Source: Acidobacteriota bacterium (GTDB lineage Bacteria > Acidobacteriota > UBA6911 > RPQK01 > JAJDTT01). Taken from it: a stretch of 64,000 bases of DNA. Positions within the stretch are counted from its first letter, which is position 1. Every line of letters starts with the position of its first letter. The DNA is taken from the NCBI GenBank assembly GCA_028874215.1, contig JAPPLF010000007.1:62001-126000 (forward strand), given 5' to 3'. The position numbers were made by a program, and so were the translations under genes. Shown here piece by piece: positions 14,902-47,566 of this stretch. The notes beneath the pieces were generated by a model, which was given only the letters and a program-made list of their open reading frames with translations, had not been told where the DNA came from and did not search any database.

Positions 14902-15891
14902 TCAACTCTCCTCCATCCCGGCTGCCCGGAGCACGGCGCGTTTGACGGCCACTCGAGCCAGTTGGATCTTGTACTTGTTCCGGCTCAGCGCCCGCGCGCC
15001 TTCCACGGCGGCGTCACCGGCACTTTCCGCCGATTCCCGGCTGACGGCTTTACCTTGAAGAGCCATGCCGGCCTTCTCGGAGACCCACGGCACCGGAGCG
15101 ACATGTCCCAATACGACGCGGGCTTGACCGACGCCGCCGCCGTTTTCGGTCAGCGAAACGGACGCCGCGGCCAGCGGCCAGTCCAGCGCCTCCTTCTCCC
15201 GAACTTCGTAGGTGGCGTTTTGCGTTCCCGAGGCCGCCGGAACCACGATCCGGGTCAGGATCTCGTTGGGGGCCAGGACATTCTCCCGCTCACTCTGGGA
15301 CCCGGGAGTCTGGAAAAAATCCTCGAGGGCGATTTCCCGGGAGCCGGAGACTCCCTGGATCGTCACCTTGGCTCCGAGTGCGATCAGAGCGGGAGCCAGG
15401 CTCGAAGCATTGACGAATTGCGCCGGACCGTCGTTGCCCAAAATGGCGTGGTAGCGATTGTCTCCGTCCGCGACCATGGACTTGCCGTTCATTTGCGCCA
15501 GCAGTCCGAAACCCCGGCGAAAATACCAGCATCGGGGCCGTTGACAGAGGTCGCCGCCGACCGTGCCGGCAGCCTGGATCTGCGCACTGCGAATACCGTC
15601 CAGAGCCTGAATCAGCGCCGGATAGTGAGTCTGCACCGAATCCTGGGCGGCCAGTTCGTCCAGGGTCGCGACGGCGCCGATGCTGAGTCCGGCGTCCGAG
15701 TCGAAACTCACCCCTTGGAGATCTTCGATGGATTTGATGTTCACGAGACGCCCGGGGGTCACGACATAGTCCTTCATCAGGCTCAGGAGATCGGTTCCGC
15801 CGGCCAGCACGGCCGACTCTCCTTCGTTGCTCCCCAAGAGGCGAACGGCGTCCTGGATCGAGGTTGGGTTGGCATATTCGAAGGCTTGCAT
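14902..15891 (-). CDS. Molybdenum hydroxylase FAD-binding subunit (CoxM/YagS type)
   Basis: 329 residues. The FAD pyrophosphate-binding motif AVLAGGTDLLSLMK lies at residues 27-40 and the second FAD motif near 96-114 (GIRSAQIQAAGTVGGD). A YagS-like insertion starts with LCQRPRCWYFRR (115-126) and ends with GDNRYHAILG (143-152), but lacks most of the cysteines that hold a 4Fe-4S cluster in E. coli PaoB. The subunit passes electrons from the Fe-S subunit to an external acceptor. Its ATG overlaps the stop of the large-subunit gene by one base. Confidence 0.92.
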   Translation of the reverse strand: MQAFEYANPTSIQDAVRLLGSNEGESAVLAGGTDLLSLMKDYVVTPGRLVNIKSIEDLQGVSFDSDAGLSIGAVATLDELAAQDSVQTHYPALIQALDGIRSAQIQAAGTVGGDLCQRPRCWYFRRGFGLLAQMNGKSMVADGDNRYHAILGNDGPAQFVNASSLAPALIALGAKVTIQGVSGSREIALEDFFQTPGSQSERENVLAPNEILTRIVVPAASGTQNATYEVREKEALDWPLAAASVSLTENGGGVGQARVVLGHVAPVPWVSEKAGMALQGKAVSRESAESAGDAAVEGARALSRNKYKIQLARVAVKRAVLRAAGMEES

Positions 15892-18023
15892 CAGGCAGCT
15901 CCTCCTCTCTCAAGGGCTTCCAATACGCGATTTGGGGTCACGGGCATGTACGGGACGCGCACGCCGATGGCGTTGGCCACGGCATTCGCTATCGCCGCGC
16001 CGGTGGAGATCACCGGCGGCTCACCCAATCCGATCACGCCCCGCTCGTCGTACCCGGGACCCGTCATCATGTGCACGACCAACTCGCCGATGTCCCCGAT
16101 TCCAGGCAGCTTGTAGAACTCCATGTCCGGGTTCAACATCTTGCCGCTCACCGGATCCAGGACCTTCTCCTCGCACAAGGCGTAGGCGATTCCCATGATC
16201 AAGGAACCGTAGACCTGGCTCTCGGAAAGCTTCATGTCGATGATCAGGCCGCAGTCCTGAACCGCCACCACCTTGTTGATCTTGACGATCCCCGTCTCCA
16301 CGTCCACGGAGACGTCCGCCATCTGAATCCCGCCCACGCCGCTGTCGCTCAGCTTGCCGGGACCGGGATTGCTACCCGTCGCGCTCATGGGGCTGGGACC
16401 GATGCGGGCCGCCGCCTGCCGCCAGGAGAGGCTGCGGGCCGGATTGCCCTTGACCTGAACCCGCCCGTCGACGGCCTCCAGTTGATCGGCCGAAGCGTCC
16501 AGGGACGGAGCCACCCGTTCCAGCAACTGCTCCAGCGCGTTGACCGCCGCCCGGCGGGTCGAAGAGGTCACGCCTCCGACGGTGGTGCTTCCTCCCGAAC
16601 CTCCGGAGGCGGGAAAACGGCTGTCGCCGATCTTCACGCTCACGGCGTCGAGGGGGAGGTCCAGGGTCTCGGCCAGGATCATGGCGACGACCGTAATGGT
16701 GCCCGTGCCCAGGTCCTGGCTCCCCAATCGTGCTTCCACGTTTCCGTCGGGAAAGATCACGACTTCGCAGTTGCTCTGATGAGCCCTTCCACCCCAGGTG
16801 TGGAGGCCCAGCCCGAGACCCCGCTTGACGGGGCCGCGTCCGCTGTCTCCCCGGGGGTGCCAGTTGCGCCGCCAGTCCATGAGGGCGGCCCCCACTTTCA
16901 ATTCCTCGGCGTAGGTGTCGGCTCGAGGTCCGGTAATGGAGACGTTCTTGAGGAACAGATCCAGGGGATCCATCTTCAATTCGGCCGCCAGATCCTCCAG
17001 GGCGCCCATGGTCAGGAAGCAGGCCTGGGGATGGTTGGGGGCCCGCCAAGCTCGTGCCGTGGCCTTGTTGATGACGATGGAATGGTGCGTCTGCTTCCGG
17101 TTGGGAACCTGGAAAACGTAAGGGACCGGCGGACTGCCGCGCGAACCGGAGATCCCGCCGGAGCCCCATGTTTCCGAGTTCCAAGCCGTGATCGTACCGT
17201 CGGATTTGGCGCCGACCTCGATTTTGGCGTAAGCCGAGGGGCGGTCTCCCGCAACGGCCAACTCCGCGTCCCGCTCCAGGAAGAGCTTGACGGCGGCGTT
17301 CTCCTGGCGGGCCAACTCGGCGCACTCGATACCCCAGCGATCGGCGCTGAACTTGCTCCCGAATCCTCCGCCCATGTAGGGAGTGATCACCCGCACGTTG
17401 GCGGTCGGCAGGCCCAGCTTGTCGGCAAACTGGCCGGGCAGGCCCGAAACCGCCTGGGTGGAGCACCAGGCATTGAGCTTGTCTTCGCCTTCCCACTCGC
17501 AGACCTGGCCGTGAGACTCCATGCAGCAATGGGTGATGGCGGCAATGCCGTAGTACCCCTTGCTCCGGACGTCCGCCGAAGCCATGGCGCCGGCCGGATC
17601 TCCTTCGGTCTCCTCCCTGGCGACCTCCTGGTCCGGAGCGCTGGCCCGGTCCTCTTCCGTGACGAAATGGGAAAGAACCTCGTAGTCGACCTTGATGGCC
17701 CGAACTCCGTCCTCAGCCGCCTCTTCGGTCTCGGCGGCGACGGTCGCGATTTCGTCCAACTCCCACTTGATCTCGGTGCCGACCCCCTGAATCACCCGGA
17801 CGGCCTTGACACCCGGTACGGCTTCGGCGGCCGAAGTGTCCAGGCCGGTGATTCGAGCGTGGGCATGAGGACTGCGGAGGATTCTCGCGAACAGCATCCC
17901 GGAGCGGTTGACGTCGTAGGAGTACTTGGCCACTCCCGTCACCTTGAGAGGCCCATCCAGACGGGAGACACTTTTGCCGATGTACCTCCTCTTGGAAGCT
18001 TCCGGCCATGAGTAATCAGCCAT
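15891..18023 (-). CDS. Molybdenum hydroxylase large subunit (molybdopterin-binding, xanthine dehydrogenase/aldehyde oxidase family)
   Basis: 710 residues, similar to E. coli PaoC/YagR. The N-terminal a/b hammerhead begins GKSVSRLDGPLKVTGVAKYSYD. Cofactor motifs include GGGFGSKF (about residue 219), RAWRAPNHPQ and GSQDLGTGT. The active-site glutamate is in GLGEPPVIS near the C-terminus. Such enzymes hydroxylate aldehydes or N-heterocycles at a Mo-cytosine-dinucleotide or MPT site. With the Tat-signal-bearing small subunit it should fold in the cytoplasm and be exported. The substrate is unknown; no MoCo-insertion chaperone of the XdhC type is next to it. Confidence 0.93.
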   Translation of the reverse strand: MADYSWPEASKRRYIGKSVSRLDGPLKVTGVAKYSYDVNRSGMLFARILRSPHAHARITGLDTSAAEAVPGVKAVRVIQGVGTEIKWELDEIATVAAETEEAAEDGVRAIKVDYEVLSHFVTEEDRASAPDQEVAREETEGDPAGAMASADVRSKGYYGIAAITHCCMESHGQVCEWEGEDKLNAWCSTQAVSGLPGQFADKLGLPTANVRVITPYMGGGFGSKFSADRWGIECAELARQENAAVKLFLERDAELAVAGDRPSAYAKIEVGAKSDGTITAWNSETWGSGGISGSRGSPPVPYVFQVPNRKQTHHSIVINKATARAWRAPNHPQACFLTMGALEDLAAELKMDPLDLFLKNVSITGPRADTYAEELKVGAALMDWRRNWHPRGDSGRGPVKRGLGLGLHTWGGRAHQSNCEVVIFPDGNVEARLGSQDLGTGTITVVAMILAETLDLPLDAVSVKIGDSRFPASGGSGGSTTVGGVTSSTRRAAVNALEQLLERVAPSLDASADQLEAVDGRVQVKGNPARSLSWRQAAARIGPSPMSATGSNPGPGKLSDSGVGGIQMADVSVDVETGIVKINKVVAVQDCGLIIDMKLSESQVYGSLIMGIAYALCEEKVLDPVSGKMLNPDMEFYKLPGIGDIGELVVHMMTGPGYDERGVIGLGEPPVISTGAAIANAVANAIGVRVPYMPVTPNRVLEALERGGAA

Positions 18024-18651
18024 TGGTCCCTCCTTTCAGGGCCCCTGCCGCCTGCATCACGGCCGGGCGAATTCCGGCGTAGGTTCCACAGCGGCAGAGG
18101 TTGCCCCCCAGACCGGTGTTGATCTGGTCCAGAGTGGGATTGGGGTTCCGGTCCAGGAACGCCTTGCACGCAATGACGAATCCCGGCGTGCAGAATCCGC
18201 ACTGTTGGGCATCGTGATCCACGAAGGCCTCCTGAACGGGATGCATTCGGTCCGGGGTCCCAAGCCCCTCGACGGTTGTGATGTCCTTTCCCTGGGCCTC
18301 GATGGCCAGCGTGGAACAGGAGTAGACCGGTTTGTCGTCCACCAGGACCGTACAGGACCCGCAGGTCCCGCGGTCGCAGACCTTTTTCGCCCCCGTCAGG
18401 TCCAAATGGTTGCGAAGCGCATCCAGCAGGGTCGTCCTGGGTTCCAATTCCACCCGGTGTTTCCGTCCGTTCACCTTGAGCTTCATGCTCAAGGCTCCCG
18501 GACCCTCGACCCCGTGGCCCGACATCGCCGAAGGAGCGCCGCTGATCCGTTGCAGCAACCCCGTGGTTACGGCGCCGGCGGCGCCTCCTCTCAAGAAGGC
18601 ACGCCGCGAAACGTTCGCGGTGACGTGTTCTTCTTTTCCATTTTTGCTCAT
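18016..18651 (-). CDS. Molybdenum hydroxylase 2Fe-2S subunit with Tat signal (CoxS/YagT type)
   Basis: 211 residues from the ATG at 18651, which has a strong GGAGG site 7-8 bases upstream. The twin-arginine signal SRRAFLRGGAAGA is followed by a plant-type ferredoxin domain (CDRGTCGSC plus a fourth Cys in YSCSTLA) and an all-helical 2Fe-2S domain (QCGFCTPG and NLCRCGTY). The two clusters relay electrons from Mo to FAD. The Tat signal predicts export of the whole complex. It overlaps the large-subunit gene by 8 bases and is the first gene of the operon 14690-18651. Confidence 0.95.
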   Translation of the reverse strand: MSKNGKEEHVTANVSRRAFLRGGAAGAVTTGLLQRISGAPSAMSGHGVEGPGALSMKLKVNGRKHRVELEPRTTLLDALRNHLDLTGAKKVCDRGTCGSCTVLVDDKPVYSCSTLAIEAQGKDITTVEGLGTPDRMHPVQEAFVDHDAQQCGFCTPGFVIACKAFLDRNPNPTLDQINTGLGGNLCRCGTYAGIRPAVMQAAGALKGGTNG

Positions 18652-18698
18652 TTGGCCTCCTTCACAACATTGTCGCTGTTGGCAGGTATTTCGCACCC

Positions 18699-19799: not shown

Positions 19800-21005
19800 T
19801 CAAAGAGATCTGAGGAAAGCCAGCAGCGCGCCGCGTTCCTCCGCGGTCAGGGCTTCGAACAGGGTTCGGCTGGACTCGGCCTCGGCGCCGTGCCTCAGAA
19901 TCGCCGCTTCAATGGTGGCCGCGGACCCGTCGTGCAGATACGGAGCGCGATGCGAGACGCCCCAAAGAGCTGGCGTCCGGATCTCCGCCGGACCGGCATC
20001 TCCATCCTGAATCCCATCTCCGGTCCCCACGTCGTGGAGCAGAAAGTCCCCAAATGGTCTGAAAGTCTTGTTGCTGAGGGCTTCGAACGGGCTGGAGCCG
20101 GTCTGCAGAGTCGGAACGTGACAGGCGGAACAACGAACTTCCTCGAAGAGTTCCTCCCCCCGCCGTGTCGTGTCGTTTTCCGCACCTCCGGGCGGCGGTC
20201 CCAGCAGGCGCATGAAATTCGCGAAGTTGTCGATTCCTCGCAGCCCCGTGGACAGTTCCGGCCCATCTTCAGGGTCGGCGACGGGGTCGATGAATTCCAA
20301 CGGCTCGCAGTCTCCGGCAGGACACATCTCGTCGGGGAACAGGTCGCTGGTGATCCCCATTTCGTTGCGGTAGGCCTCTGCTCCGAAGGTGAAAAGGGAG
20401 GACTGCTGCGCCTTCCAACCGAAACGCCCGGCGCGCGTCTCTCCGGAGTCCCGGTCCACCACCCAGTGGACCCGCCCGCTGATTCCGTCGCCATCCTCGT
20501 CTTCCGGATCTTCCAGGGCCGCCAGAACCTCGTCCGGAACCGCTTCCACAAGACCGCCTCCGAACAAGGGGATCGGCTGCCGCCGGGCCACCACGTTGGC
20601 GCCTTCCGGGACCGCGGCCTGAATCGAATGGTCGGGAATGGAGAAGAGATGGATCAACGATCCGCCCGGCGGATCCTGAAAGGTTCCGTCGGCGTCCAGA
20701 GTTCCGGCCCGGACCTCGGTGATGGTGCTGATCCCCCCAATGGCGGGAGTAACGTGGCATTCGGCGCATGAGCGGCCGTTGTACAGAGGCCCCAGTCCTT
20801 CATCGGCGTCCTCCACTTCCAGAAAGTCTTCGAGTCCAAGGCGGAAAAGTTCGAATTCCACCCCATCGATTCCCTGGATGGGTTCGCCGAACTCGGTGCC
20901 CCGCACAACGGTTCCTTGTCCGGCCCCCGGACCGGACATCGCAGCAAGGGCCAGCGCCGTCGCCAGTATGGCCCCCCCCTTCACCATCCGGCACCCTTTC
21001 CACAT
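19800..21005 (-). CDS. Di-heme c-type oxidoreductase (COG3488, DHOR family)
   Basis: 401 residues from the ATG at 21005, preceded by GGAAGGA; an ATG at 21035 would overlap the cupredoxin gene. The N-terminal segment ILATALALAAMSGPGAGQ is a signal peptide. Two CxxCH heme sites are visible, CAECH in the first third and CSACH in the last third, the layout of di-heme peroxidase-like folds. This family is called thiol oxidoreductase but the reaction is not settled, and members are often metal-regulated. It is the last gene of the operon with the CuA cupredoxin and porin, suggesting periplasmic electron transfer. Confidence 0.88.
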   Translation of the reverse strand: MWKGCRMVKGGAILATALALAAMSGPGAGQGTVVRGTEFGEPIQGIDGVEFELFRLGLEDFLEVEDADEGLGPLYNGRSCAECHVTPAIGGISTITEVRAGTLDADGTFQDPPGGSLIHLFSIPDHSIQAAVPEGANVVARRQPIPLFGGGLVEAVPDEVLAALEDPEDEDGDGISGRVHWVVDRDSGETRAGRFGWKAQQSSLFTFGAEAYRNEMGITSDLFPDEMCPAGDCEPLEFIDPVADPEDGPELSTGLRGIDNFANFMRLLGPPPGGAENDTTRRGEELFEEVRCSACHVPTLQTGSSPFEALSNKTFRPFGDFLLHDVGTGDGIQDGDAGPAEIRTPALWGVSHRAPYLHDGSAATIEAAILRHGAEAESSRTLFEALTAEERGALLAFLRSL

Positions 21006-21024
21006 GGCGTTCCTTCCGCGGCCC

Positions 21025-21408
21025 TTATTCCACAATGATGGTTCCCCGCATCATGGTGTGGCCGGCGCCACAAGGCCGCGAGCATTCGAACGGATATTTC
21101 CCCGCCTTCCGGGATCGGAAACGGATCTTGATCTTTCCCTGACCCCGCCCCGGAATGGTGACGTCGATGCCGGCCTTGGGGATGCGAAAGCCATGAAACG
21201 TGTCCTGACTGCTCAACTCGATCTCCAGCAGCGTTCCCCGCTTGACCCGAATCCTGGAGGGAATGAAGTGAAACCTCTCCGCCGAGACCCGAACCTTCCG
21301 GACCTTCGCGTCATCTTTCCGCTCCGCGGTTGAAACGGGGGACGCGGGACCGGCTCCCGGACCGAGCAGGAGCAGGACGAATGTCAGCAGGATCAGCGGG
21401 ATCTTCAC
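21025..21408 (-). CDS. CuA-type cupredoxin (COX2-like), stand-alone domain
   Basis: 127 residues from GTG 21408, which has an AGGAGG site; an upstream ATG at 21450 would run into the porin gene. The start VKIPLILLTFVLLLLGPG is a signal or anchor segment. The cupredoxin domain has a ligand His in DTFHGF and a full CuA motif, ECSRPCGAGHTMM (Cys-x3-Cys-x3-His-x2-Met), as in subunit II of cytochrome c oxidase and NosZ. No oxidase subunit I or III genes are near, so it is an independent binuclear copper electron carrier. It follows the porin by 11 bases. Confidence 0.87.
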   Translation of the reverse strand: MKIPLILLTFVLLLLGPGAGPASPVSTAERKDDAKVRKVRVSAERFHFIPSRIRVKRGTLLEIELSSQDTFHGFRIPKAGIDVTIPGRGQGKIKIRFRSRKAGKYPFECSRPCGAGHTMMRGTIIVE

Positions 21409-21419
21409 GGCCGTTCCTC

Positions 21420-22862
21420 CTAAAACCACCAGCCGATACCCAGGTTCCACCGGTTTCGGGGCCGCACGACCCGGCTGGCGTTCCTCATGAAGTTGTAATC
21501 GGCTTTCAGGACCACATCCGGATGTGGAAAGTAGGACAGGCCCAGTATATGTGCCGACCGGTCGAACTGGCTCAGGGGAAAGAACCCTTGAGGCATCCGG
21601 TACTGAGTGTCGAAGTTCTCGTAACGGTAAAACCCGACCAGATCATGGCTGGAACCGGACGGCACCAGGCTGCTGGAGCCCTCCAGGTAGAATCCCCGCA
21701 TTCCCCGGGCAATGTTCGGGTTGATTCCGGCGTTGCGGCGAATCGCCGCATTGACTTCGGAAGCCTGTCCCAAATGGGTCACGGCAAACTGCCCTCGGGC
21801 TTCAAAGCGATCGAACCGGTACCTGCCGTCGAATTCGAAGATCCGCAATCGGGCGTCCAGATCCCTGAGGTGGAATCCCGTCTCTCCGGTCCAGAAGCTG
21901 GCGCCCAGATTCATTCCCGGAAGGGGTCCATAGTCGACTCGCCCGACCCAGGCCAGATTGCGCGCGTTCTCCAAGAACGATTTCTGCCTCCCCTCCCGGA
22001 ATCCCTCTTCCGCCGAGAAGAGGGAGCCGTCCATGGAACTCATGACATAGCTCTTGTAGGAAAGGCCGCCACCCAGGTCTCCCACCAGGCCTCCGCCGGC
22101 GGCGAACCAGGTGGTGGGGAGGATGACCTCATCCACGAAGGGACGCTCCACCCCGTGAAACGCCGTGGGTTCGTGTCTTTCGTTGATGATTCCCACCGGG
22201 GTCAACAGAACTCCGGCCCGAAAGTTGAATCGCGGGTCGATGAGAAAGTCCAGGAAGGCCTGTTCCAGTTCCAACTCGCCGGTGGGAGCGCCGCCCTCGA
22301 TCAGACCGTGCTCGAGTTCCAACTCCGACCAGAACCGGATCCGATCTCCGAACATGTGGCCCAGGTTCAGAACGAAGCGGTGAAAATCGAGGGTCGTCGG
22401 GTTCAGGCCGTCGTGGTTGACATGCATCTCCATGTACCCGGACATGGGCATGCTGCCGTCGAAGAATCCCGCTGAAGCGTCGATCGCCTCAGGCGCCGCC
22501 ACCACCTCGGCCACCACCATCGCCTCCTCCACCGGCGATGGTTCCTCTGCCGCCACGGCCGGTTCCGGACCCGGCTCTTCGACCCGGGCCGCGTCTCCGC
22601 GTATGGTCTTGAGCTCGGCGGCCAAGGTCCGAAGCTGAGTTTTCACGTCCTCGTCCAGCGTGCCCTCCAGGGCGGCGGCCAGGAGTGCGATCAGCCGCTC
22701 CAGATTGGATTCCACCCGGTCGAGACGGTCTTCCAGGGACTCCCGCGAGGGATCGCCTTCCGCCGCGCGGATCTCGCCCCCGACAGAAACGGCGACCAGC
22801 AGGAGGACGGGGACGGATCGAATGGCAATTGCCGCCGCCGTAGCGAGGCGAGAGTATTTCAT
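21420..22862 (-). CDS. Outer-membrane porin (OprP/OprO-like beta-barrel) with N-terminal coiled coil
   Basis: 480 residues. MKYSRLATAAAIAIRSVPVLLLVAVSVGG is a signal peptide. Residues 40-85 form a coiled coil (SLEDRLDRVESNLERLIALL), then a Pro/Glu/Ala-rich linker, then a barrel of alternating strands rich in aromatic residues that ends in GIGWWF with a C-terminal phenylalanine, typical for BAM-dependent insertion. A conserved motif HVNHDGLNPTTLDFHRFVLN opens the barrel. It is the first gene of an operon with a CuA protein and a di-heme protein. The ATG has no Shine-Dalgarno site. Confidence 0.85.
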   Translation of the reverse strand: MKYSRLATAAAIAIRSVPVLLLVAVSVGGEIRAAEGDPSRESLEDRLDRVESNLERLIALLAAALEGTLDEDVKTQLRTLAAELKTIRGDAARVEEPGPEPAVAAEEPSPVEEAMVVAEVVAAPEAIDASAGFFDGSMPMSGYMEMHVNHDGLNPTTLDFHRFVLNLGHMFGDRIRFWSELELEHGLIEGGAPTGELELEQAFLDFLIDPRFNFRAGVLLTPVGIINERHEPTAFHGVERPFVDEVILPTTWFAAGGGLVGDLGGGLSYKSYVMSSMDGSLFSAEEGFREGRQKSFLENARNLAWVGRVDYGPLPGMNLGASFWTGETGFHLRDLDARLRIFEFDGRYRFDRFEARGQFAVTHLGQASEVNAAIRRNAGINPNIARGMRGFYLEGSSSLVPSGSSHDLVGFYRYENFDTQYRMPQGFFPLSQFDRSAHILGLSYFPHPDVVLKADYNFMRNASRVVRPRNRWNLGIGWWF

Positions 22863-22871
22863 GGTGCTAAA

Positions 22872-22904
22872 CTGAAGTTTAGTCTTGTCTAAACTTCAGG
22901 TCAA
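22872..22904 (-). promoter_or_regulatory. Promoter with palindromic operator of the porin/CuA/di-heme operon
   Basis: On the minus strand TTGACC (22899-22904) and TAAACT (22876-22881) are spaced by 17 bases. A perfect 11-base inverted repeat, CTGAAGTTTAG at 22872-22882 and CTAAACTTCAG at 22889-22899 with a 6-base loop, covers the spacer and the -10 box. A third GTTTAG half-site follows at 22866-22871. The arrangement TTTAG-N6-CTAAA resembles DtxR/MntR-class operators; that regulator class is an inference. Confidence 0.7.
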
Positions 22905-22974: not shown

Positions 22975-25401
22975 TCAGCTTCCGGGCTCGGTTTCGGAAA
23001 CGATCCGATCATAGACCCGGCGGGCGTGGTCATACGCCTTGCGTGCCGCGTCCTTCTCCGAATCGCGGATCTTGCCCTGCTTCATCTTCCAGCATTGATC
23101 CACGGCCTGACGGCACCATTCGGCGCTCTTGCGGGAAGCCCGCACCGGCTCGCCTCCCACCAGGACGAAGATGGGATTGGTATGGGAGCTGGCAAGAACC
23201 CGCAGAGCGACCCAACTGGACCGGGCGAGCTCATGATCAAACTCGATATCGTTCCAGTCGCCATCAGCCGTCACGACCCGGGTTCCCACGGGCTGCCCGT
23301 TCACCACCAGTTCCAGCGGAACCTCACGGCTGGTTCCCCTGCGGGCACGTTCCAGATGCCAATAGGGAGGCTGAGTCAAGCCCCGCGAGGCAATCAACGC
23401 GCCCACGTCATCCTGCCTTTCCGGAAGGTAGGCGGCGACCCGGGCCCGGACCTTCACCCGGCCGGGTGCGGCCAGCCTGAGTTCACTTCCCTCCGTACCC
23501 AGTTCGCGGTCCTGCACCCGAAACCCGATAATGTGCGATCTGCCGTCCGAGACATAGCTCCGCCCGGCGCGGATCTGATCCATGTAGCGGTCGAAGTCCA
23601 ACTCCCCTTCCAGCTTCGCGTAGCTGCGAGACATCCCGATTCGGTCGTCGTAAATGCAGGGAAAGTCGGTCTCTCCACTGATGCGGGTCCGAAAACCCGA
23701 GTTCAAGGTGTGGTACCAGATGTTGAACTCCCAGGGCAGCGGCGTGTCTCCGGCGGAAATGAAGTCCACCGCGTCGTGGGTCACCGTCACGATGTACTCA
23801 TTGGCGCCGATTCCGTCGAACTTGGCCATTGCGTAGTTGGGCAATTCGGTGGTGAATTCCATCGGCTCCAGGCCCCATCCCGAATGGGAGTAGCCGACGA
23901 CGGCTCCCTGGCCCTGTCCCCACTGCAGGACAGGAAGGGTCCAGCTCGGCCATTGCTGGACCCGGGTCGTCCCGGGGTAGTCGTCTTCCCGCAGGCGCAG
24001 AAGACAGAGATGGCCCGCGTGCGAGGAGGGAAAGCCGGAGACCTCCACGTCGTAACGCATCAGGTTGTTCCCGTTGGAGAGGGAATGCACCCGGCCCTCG
24101 AAGAACTCCTTCTGGTGATACCAACACGGTCCCCAGGTCAGGACGCAGGCGATGTTCAAATCTTCGCCCAGCGCCTGGCGCCACATGTGAAGCGGCTGGA
24201 CCCCTTCGTCGGGGCTCTCGTAGTGGCTGCATCCGGCGGCATGGACATGGTGGTCGGCGCTGTACCAGCCCAGGGCCGCCAAATGCGTCCAGCGCTGCAG
24301 CCGAAATTCGATCTCCTGCTCTTCGACACCGGAACGAACGCGGACTCTCCGGTTCTGAACCAGGTATTCCGGACCGCGTTGGACGCGAATCTCATATTCG
24401 CCCGCCGGCAGGAAGACATGCTCCCCGTCGGCACGGTAGACCTGAGGATGGAAGAAGAAATCGGGATATTCTCCGCGGGAGAGCCGCCGCGACGGCAGCG
24501 GGTAGACCCCCACCAGGCGGCCGACGGGGCCGGGAGTATTGCCGATGCCCCGGGTCCGGTCCCAGGGACGCCTCAACGCCAGAGCCAACCGGTAGTCCGA
24601 GGGGAGCCGGTTCAGCTCCGGATCCTCGATCACCCGTTCGATGCCGTCGGTGATGACGAACGACGCCATGGTGGGAGAACCGTCGTGATCCTTGACCCGG
24701 AGCCGGACCTTAACCGCAGGGCGGCAATCGAACAGGATGTCCACGCTGTTTCGAAAGCCCAGGTCCTGGGTCCCCTGCCCCACGTGGAATCCGATCTTGG
24801 CCTCGCGCAGTCCCTGTTCCCGAGCGTAGATCTGGACGATGGCGTACTCCAGCTTCAGACCCGAAAGGCGGCTGTGCAAGGGACGGCGGCCATAGATGGC
24901 CAACTCCAGGAAACGATTGGCCACGTCTCCGTCCGAGAGCACGTTCTCCGGCTTGACCCGCTTGGCTCCGGTCGACTTGTGAAACAGCGGCAGCGCATTG
25001 GGGCTCTCGGCGTGGAGCTGGGCGTTGACGGCCGCGTCGTTTTCTATCTTGACCAGAAAGCTGGACCATCCTCCCTGGACCAGGAGGGGAGCCGCCGGTC
25101 CGCGAATCACCTTGACCCGGGCCTCGGGGTTGATGGACACCATGGCGAGGCAATACGGATCCAGAACGGTCTGGATTTCACGGACCACGGCATCGGAAGG
25201 CGCCTGATCCCTCAGGGCCTGGATCCGCTCCCAGTCCCGGCTCTCCAAGCGGCTGCCCAGGAACGAAAGGGCTTCCCCAAGGCGGACGACCTGAGCCATC
25301 AGCGGCTGGGGCTCGACTTCGTCTACCAATGGCAACGCCTGTCCGGGGAGAAGCGAAAAGAAAGATGCGGAGAGGACGATCAACGCCATGGCCTGTTTCA
25401 C
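22975..25401 (-). CDS. CehA/McbA-family metallohydrolase, exported
   Basis: 808 residues with signal peptide MKQAMALIVLSASFFSLLPG. The C-terminal half is a PHP-like metallohydrolase: WYSADHHVHAAGCSHY (about residues 344-359) holds the first metal histidines, and later ones are in YSHSGWG and VTHDAVDFIS, with SGETDFPCIYDDR near the end. The N-terminal half is beta-rich. CehA and McbA themselves hydrolyse carbaryl, but the wider family is of unknown substrate and is common in polymer-degrading soil and marine bacteria. It is divergent from the lsrF-like gene and so may be part of the same catabolic locus. Confidence 0.82.
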   Translation of the reverse strand: MKQAMALIVLSASFFSLLPGQALPLVDEVEPQPLMAQVVRLGEALSFLGSRLESRDWERIQALRDQAPSDAVVREIQTVLDPYCLAMVSINPEARVKVIRGPAAPLLVQGGWSSFLVKIENDAAVNAQLHAESPNALPLFHKSTGAKRVKPENVLSDGDVANRFLELAIYGRRPLHSRLSGLKLEYAIVQIYAREQGLREAKIGFHVGQGTQDLGFRNSVDILFDCRPAVKVRLRVKDHDGSPTMASFVITDGIERVIEDPELNRLPSDYRLALALRRPWDRTRGIGNTPGPVGRLVGVYPLPSRRLSRGEYPDFFFHPQVYRADGEHVFLPAGEYEIRVQRGPEYLVQNRRVRVRSGVEEQEIEFRLQRWTHLAALGWYSADHHVHAAGCSHYESPDEGVQPLHMWRQALGEDLNIACVLTWGPCWYHQKEFFEGRVHSLSNGNNLMRYDVEVSGFPSSHAGHLCLLRLREDDYPGTTRVQQWPSWTLPVLQWGQGQGAVVGYSHSGWGLEPMEFTTELPNYAMAKFDGIGANEYIVTVTHDAVDFISAGDTPLPWEFNIWYHTLNSGFRTRISGETDFPCIYDDRIGMSRSYAKLEGELDFDRYMDQIRAGRSYVSDGRSHIIGFRVQDRELGTEGSELRLAAPGRVKVRARVAAYLPERQDDVGALIASRGLTQPPYWHLERARRGTSREVPLELVVNGQPVGTRVVTADGDWNDIEFDHELARSSWVALRVLASSHTNPIFVLVGGEPVRASRKSAEWCRQAVDQCWKMKQGKIRDSEKDAARKAYDHARRVYDRIVSETEPGS

Positions 25402-46891: not shown

Positions 46892-47566
46892 ATGGCAGCC
46901 AAGACGACACCGGTGATCAGCCGTGCAATGGAAGATTACCTCAAGGCCATCTACGAGTTGGCCGCCGGAGACTCGCTGGTCACGACCTCCAGGGTCGCCG
47001 CCGCCATGTCATGCCGGCCGGCCAGCGTGACCAACATGGTCCAGCGCCTTTCCGACCTGAAGCTGGTGGAATACCAGCGCTACAAGGGAGTCCGCCTGAC
47101 TCCGGCCGGAACCCGGATCGCGCTCGAGATCATCCGGCACCACCGGCTGCTGGAACTGTACCTGTCCGAGGTCCTGGGCTACACCTGGGACAAGGTGCAC
47201 GAGGAAGCGGATCTCCTGGAACACGTCATTTCCGAGGAGTTCGAAGAGAAGATCGACCAGGCGCTGGGATACCCGCGCAAGGACCCCCACGGCGATCCCA
47301 TTCCCACCAAGAAAGGCGAGATCGACCTGGAACGGGTGGGAAGGCTCTGGGACATGGTCGCCGGCCAGGAAACCCGGGTGCGGAGGGTCCGCGACAAGGA
47401 CCCCAACGTCCTGCGCCACCTGGCCTCCATCGGCATCTTCCCCGACGTCAAGCTGGACCTGGTGAGGCGGGACCCTTTCAACGGACCCGTCTATGTCCGG
47501 GTCAATGGAGTCGAGCACGGACTCAGCGAGGAACTGGCGCGCCAGATCTTCGTCAGCCTGCCATGA
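46892..47566 (+). CDS. DtxR/MntR-family metal-dependent transcriptional regulator
   Basis: 224 residues. Residues 13-75 are the winged helix-turn-helix (MEDYLKAIYELAAGDSLVTTSRVAAAM); the recognition helix is near RPASVTNMVQRL. The dimerisation and metal-binding domain follows with HHRLLELYL and DLLEHVISEEFEEKID. The end (about 150-224) is a FeoA-like SH3 domain. Such proteins bind Mn2+ or Fe2+ and repress uptake genes. The metal cannot be decided from sequence alone. The stop overlaps the start of an acyl-CoA ligase gene by 4 bases, an uncommon partner. Confidence 0.9.
   Translation: MAAKTTPVISRAMEDYLKAIYELAAGDSLVTTSRVAAAMSCRPASVTNMVQRLSDLKLVEYQRYKGVRLTPAGTRIALEIIRHHRLLELYLSEVLGYTWDKVHEEADLLEHVISEEFEEKIDQALGYPRKDPHGDPIPTKKGEIDLERVGRLWDMVAGQETRVRRVRDKDPNVLRHLASIGIFPDVKLDLVRRDPFNGPVYVRVNGVEHGLSEELARQIFVSLP

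Follow-up and report, generated by a model that had tools for sequence, protein, structure and literature searches.

CuA centers are known mostly from cytochrome oxidase and N2O reductase, which electrons enter through them. For the di-heme oxidoreductase (DHOR; DUF1111) proteins we know of no settled function. Cupredoxin and DUF1111/heme peroxidase components have been described in iron-uptake operons, with DUF1111 proteins beside imelysins (PMC3143127), and FtrB of the Brucella FtrABCD system is a periplasmic cupredoxin serving iron uptake (PMC11966278). Within a 64,000-nucleotide stretch of an Acidobacteriota genome (herein the window), an operon encodes a porin, a CuA-type cupredoxin and a DHOR. 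It is like the EfeUOB and imelysin/DUF1111 operons (e.g. P. aeruginosa PA4370-PA4373) in combining an exported cupredoxin and/or heme peroxidase with the features of a metal-regulated iron operon. A search of the open-licence literature found no published description of a porin-CuA-DHOR operon.

A conserved three-gene unit

The operon has the following layout:

21420-22862, minus strand: outer-membrane porin gene, 480 aa, C-terminal GWWF; first in the operon
21025-21408, minus strand: cupredoxin gene, 127 aa, GTG start; second in the operon
19800-21005, minus strand: DHOR gene, 401 aa; third in the operon

The first-pass annotation gave spacings of 11 and about 19 bases, and the coordinates make these exactly 11 (21409-21419, porin/cupredoxin) and 19 (21006-21024, cupredoxin/DHOR). 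The cupredoxin GTG start follows a TAGGAGG at the porin gene's end. In several relatives the cupredoxin begins with an ATG that overlaps the stop codon of the porin, which suggests translational coupling. Judged by eye, the N termini of all three proteins look like signal peptides, and the export proposed at first pass is accordingly predicted for porin, cupredoxin and DHOR alike. Upstream of the operon and on the same strand lies a gene for a CehA/McbA-family metallohydrolase (22975-25401; 276.5 bits, cut-off 80), also a neighbor in G002. Three ORFs at 14902-18696 (minus strand) read as a putative molybdenum hydroxylase with Fe-S, Mo and FAD subunits.

Loci were gathered from 60 relatives, from a genome-collection scan with two short peptide patterns and from an even sample of 396 Acidobacteriota genomes; combined, these yielded 31 distinct acidobacterial loci with cupredoxins of the operon clade. 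The collection scan returned 17 loci, Acidobacteriota without exception, and with its two patterns found no unit outside that phylum; an upstream porin and a downstream DHOR are present in all 17, and likewise in the relatives. A clade cupredoxin is encoded by 18 of the 396 phylum-sample genomes (E ≤ 1.6e-36), set apart by a gap from the next matches at 5e-27. The complete porin-CuA-DHOR series is found in the same order at 29 of the 31 loci, the others being one contig-end cut and one decayed copy. Both fall among 12 further phylum-sample genomes, ten of which are complete: the DHOR of G291 is cut by a contig end, and at the G151 locus (L148:2689-4240, G151:C1) the CuA gene is followed by a shortened DHOR that matches over part of its length, with no porin found, so this copy has apparently decayed.

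Porin and DHOR were absent beside all eight of the next-closest acidobacterial CuA-type cupredoxins (0/8). Likewise, there is no annotated DHOR or porin beside the distant plasmid cupredoxins of Ilyobacter, Janthinobacterium and Geobacillus; the Cupriavidus record is unannotated there. Correlations between the distance matrices of porin, cupredoxin and DHOR run from 0.84 to 0.89, as expected under co-inheritance; shared species history also lifts these values. The three genes are neighbors in nearly all loci, and their grouping is a conserved, co-inherited unit, beyond chance.

The cupredoxin, the di-heme protein and the porin

The cupredoxin matches the Pfam families Cupredoxin_1 (E 1.2e-9) and COX2 (E 9.9e-6) as well as solved CuA domains (best E 7e-13). 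The complete CuA motif recorded at first pass is present (H72 and C109-x3-C113-x3-H117-x2-M120); its side-chain ligands are invariant in 31/31 operon cupredoxins, none having been lost, and the protein would be expected to load copper as CuA. It scores below the cut-offs of the CoxB (TIGR02866; 43.9 bits, cut-off 147.7) and NosZ (TIGR04246; 40.2 bits, cut-off 625) models and, at 127 aa, lacks the N-terminal propeller that the latter specifies. The 31 operon cupredoxins form one clade against the eight other CuA-type cupredoxins (support 0.89). The Cox2-type Glu of the Cys loop is replaced by Arg, Lys or Gln in all 31 and is present in six of the eight others. In COX2 this Glu has a second role, binding a Mg/Mn ion at the interface with subunit I, and its replacement is thus consistent with a protein that has no oxidase partner; it contacts copper via its backbone, a contact that need not be lost with the side chain. 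The earlier remark that a CuA site without an oxidase is unusual was overstated: single-domain CuA-type cupredoxins without porin or DHOR occur elsewhere in Acidobacteriota, and PmoD likewise has a CuA site outside an oxidase (PMC6189053).

The DHOR matches PF06537 (E 1.3e-50; 172.8 bits, gathering cut-off 22) over profile positions 212 through 499 of 499, and no second copy was found in the genome. The two CxxCH sites seen at first pass lie at C80-H84 and C292-H296; both are kept in 19/19 aligned DHORs and in complete DHORs, and they are predicted to carry heme. The segment E215-M216-G217 is likewise kept in 19/19. The protein aligns with bacterial di-heme cytochrome c peroxidases across its C-terminal half, where the NEMG segment of complete DHORs aligns with the peroxidase EMG. 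Its scores fall below the cut-offs of the di-heme cytochrome c peroxidase model NF040606 (17.8 bits, cut-off 150) and of the MbnH/MauG models TIGR04039 (19.5, cut-off 362.85) and TIGR03791 (16.1, cut-off 443.85). A structure prediction (pLDDT 43) was set aside. At one locus (L058:2992-5447), a second two-CxxCH protein with weak DHOR similarity and a 461-aa neighbor lie directly upstream of the operon.

The porin of the window has no Pfam match, and 13 of 19 orthologs match Porin_O_P weakly (best E 1.2e-4). The terminal Phe noted at first pass belongs to a GWWF C terminus found in 19/19 aligned orthologs. A structure model (pLDDT 62) has about 16 strands, with an N-terminal signal and coiled coil. 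Its best structural matches are OprO (Z 19.8) and OprP (Z 19.2); other general porins follow at Z 17 to 19, so that no single porin family stands clearly above the rest by fold and, with these within two Z units of OprO/OprP, porin specificity is unreadable from the model.

A palindromic operator and its candidate repressor

The first-pass annotation overlooked a palindrome within its own interval and a DtxR-family gene 24 kb away:

22872-22899: perfect palindrome CTGAAGTTTAG-TCTTGT-CTAAACTTCAG with 11-base arms, a putative DtxR-type operator directly before the porin
22878-22893: operator core TTTAGnCnnGnCTAAA, 16-31 bases before the porin start
46892-47566, plus strand: gene for a DtxR-family regulator that has a FeoA domain at its C terminus; no other DtxR-family gene was found in the genome

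The host genome is 5.7 Mb at ~63% GC, and the core occurs in it exactly once, before the porin. The box before the porin is kept exactly in G003 and G002 and with one mismatch in G001 and G017. Near-identical boxes stand before a gene for a DtxR-C/FeoA-domain protein followed by FeoB in five genomes (G017, G008, G011, G012 and G006; loci L141:1368-3229, L146:1744-3677, L150, L155 and L170:195-3526); the upstream protein has an N-terminal hydrophobic segment. G010 has an exact box ahead of a multicopper oxidase gene that overlaps one for a ZIP permease (L166:1883-4082, G010:C108); this pair may be a further operon of the regulon, one in which an oxidase assists metal uptake. By chance, a given 200-bp promoter is expected to hold ~1e-4 boxes (1 to 5 boxes per genome at ≤1 mismatch). 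The simplest reading of a box that directly precedes a start codon and recurs at an importer operon is a repressor site, which would mean that the unit is made when the metal is scarce.

The box has a patchy distribution. About half of the operon loci have no good match to its consensus before the porin, where the box may differ or be absent, and none was found at the host genome's own feoAB; both count against the explanation that we favor below. Nor does a box stand near those copies of the host Nramp and feoAB genes that were checked. By reading, no metal gene lies beside the one-mismatch site G000:C48 or the two-mismatch site on C49, and two exact boxes in G008 (C10, C35) have no obvious metal gene downstream, so not every box is explained. 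The unit is not present in all congeners: G001 (L140:4651-6138, G001:C194) keeps the box and a porin 92% identical, with CuA and DHOR absent. The absence of both together beside a retained porin suggests that CuA and DHOR act as a pair.

The regulator matches PF01325 (62.0 bits, cut-off 26), PF02742 (110.9, cut-off 27) and FeoA (60.4, cut-off 23), and it is probably the repressor of the operon, acting at the palindrome. At 11 of 29 other loci examined (7/17 from the collection and 4/12 from the phylum sample), the operon is bordered by full or partial DtxR-family genes. Nearly every genome of the phylum sample has such a gene, so the presence of one alone is unspecific, and it was discarded as a marker of operon presence. 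In the regulator, Asp takes the place of both DtxR Met10 and DtxR Cys102; at these primary-site positions, regulators next to the operon elsewhere carry Asp or Asn, and Glu. In BsMntR the primary site is the Mn-type Asp8/Glu99 (PMC4805248). Asp/Asp is thus nearer Mn-type MntR than Fe-type DtxR and, taken alone, leans to manganese; ScaR and SloR are among the regulator's closest solved relatives. These residues leave the metal unsettled, since TroR, whose residues are Asn/Glu, responds to Mn as well as to Fe (PMC2628430). The box common to FeoB operons leans to iron. We rank iron first, as the presumed metal, with manganese its main rival.

Proposed function and relation to known systems

The first-pass annotation read the three genes as an envelope redox unit for the uptake or oxidation of a metal or other substrate. 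The unit itself is borne out by its co-inheritance, and the metal link, probably to iron, is strengthened by the operator common to feoB operons and by the neighboring DtxR-family genes; uptake or oxidation of a substrate stays at the level of a proposal. Its control site is of the type found at iron importer genes, and a redox role in obtaining iron is therefore probable. Our best explanation, which we consider evenly poised between right and wrong, is that metal starvation induces an envelope redox module serving, most likely, iron acquisition; it would work much as is proposed for Efe-type (EfeO/EfeB, cupredoxin plus heme peroxidase) and Ftr (FtrB) systems, though with different components. 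Carrying Fe(II) or possibly Mn(II), a DtxR-family repressor would bind the palindrome and shut off one polycistronic mRNA; when the metal is low, the three exported proteins would be made together. The porin would admit iron, free or chelated, to the periplasm, where the CuA cupredoxin and the di-heme protein, acting as an electron relay, would alter the iron's oxidation state or free it from its ligand. By analogy with Efe-type systems, the likeliest relay would run from Fe(II) to CuA to a di-heme peroxidase, with H2O2 as the final acceptor. The CuA-DHOR electron transfer, its direction and its substrate are what we infer here. Entry to the cytoplasm would be through a permease encoded elsewhere; FeoAB, and hence FeoB, is present in the host genome.

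Two further points count against iron uptake: the operon has no inner-membrane permease, and a heme- and copper-rich device would be a costly answer to iron shortage. By reading, no Ftr1-type permease was recognized near the operon. We are more tentative, and on balance doubtful, about a bolder proposal: a CuA center freed from respiratory enzymes would, together with a DHOR, form a redox relay dedicated to nutrient iron, which is taken up by way of the co-expressed porin. That would make the operon an iron acquisition system of a new type, one seen so far in Acidobacteriota alone.

Of the other explanations, manganese in place of iron is unlikely yet deserves the most weight. The repressor would then sense Mn(II) as an MntR-type protein, with the unit admitting and redox-handling manganese when it is short, in keeping with the Asp/Asp site, the Asp or Asn and Glu of the adjacent regulators, the Asp8/Glu99 site of BsMntR and the kinship to ScaR and SloR. 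The sharing of the box with FeoB operons in five genomes speaks against manganese, and the dual response of TroR makes the residues indecisive. Somewhat less probable still is peroxide defense, with the DHOR as a di-heme peroxidase, CuA as its electron donor and the porin incidental; metal control would then give protection when Fe- or Mn-dependent defenses fail, or against Fe-driven peroxide damage. Cupredoxins can serve di-heme peroxidases, and the C-terminal alignment that includes EMG fits such a role, whereas the scores under the curated cut-offs of the peroxidase families do not, and both the invariant porin and a heme enzyme's box shared with feoB would be left unexplained.

The remaining two proposals are improbable. 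If the DHOR were a MauG/MbnH-like oxidase modifying a residue of a partner protein, with CuA as redox partner, its weak matches to MauG, MbnH and His-Xaa-Ser MauG-like models would be accounted for; all of these scores are far under the cut-offs, no MbnP-like partner is seen in the operon and the cupredoxin has no Trp. Even harder to credit is copper handling, in which the unit would import or buffer copper and the DtxR link would be indirect. The cupredoxin should bind two coppers, and a role in copper transit has been reported for a porin-like protein from rhizobia (PMC6011978), but the operator and the neighboring genes indicate a DtxR-family metalloregulator, not a copper sensor. As for the iron-acquisition module that we prefer, a conserved operon with an iron-type operator provides CuA and DHOR each with a partner and a growth condition that can be tested, and it hints at a way in which iron may be obtained by part of a large soil phylum that is mostly uncultured.

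Compared with the EfeUOB and imelysin/DUF1111 operons, the host genome (97.5% complete) has no match to imelysin (M75, PF09375) and no Efe gene order; here the cupredoxin is CuA-type, a porin belongs to the unit and the operator is of DtxR type rather than Fur. FtrABCD has P19, an Ftr1 permease and ferredoxin parts, none of which is seen here, and is without DHOR or porin; FtrB is not described as CuA, in contrast to the operon cupredoxin. The latter shares its fold family and CuA ligand pattern with the CuA domain of T. thermophilus ba3 subunit II and differs from cytochrome c oxidase subunit II in being a single exported domain, with no adjoining oxidase genes and with the Cys-loop Glu replaced in 31/31. 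PmoD/AmoD is likewise a non-oxidase cupredoxin with a CuA site (PMC6189053), although in PmoD that site lies at a homodimer interface and has different ligands, and the protein is linked to methane/ammonia oxidation. The DHOR is like the di-heme cytochrome c peroxidase/MauG/MbnH superfamily in its two predicted c-type hemes and its aligning C-terminal half and EMG, yet it scores under the curated cut-offs of those families and belongs to PF06537. With OprP/OprO the porin shares a barrel with an N-terminal coiled coil (Z 19.2 to 19.8) and weak Porin_O_P matches; at ~13% identity, and with other general porins scoring nearly as high, the substrate is not transferable. The parts are of known kinds, and the combination of porin, CuA and DHOR, new as far as the open-licence literature shows, would belong with redox-assisted metal uptake modules.
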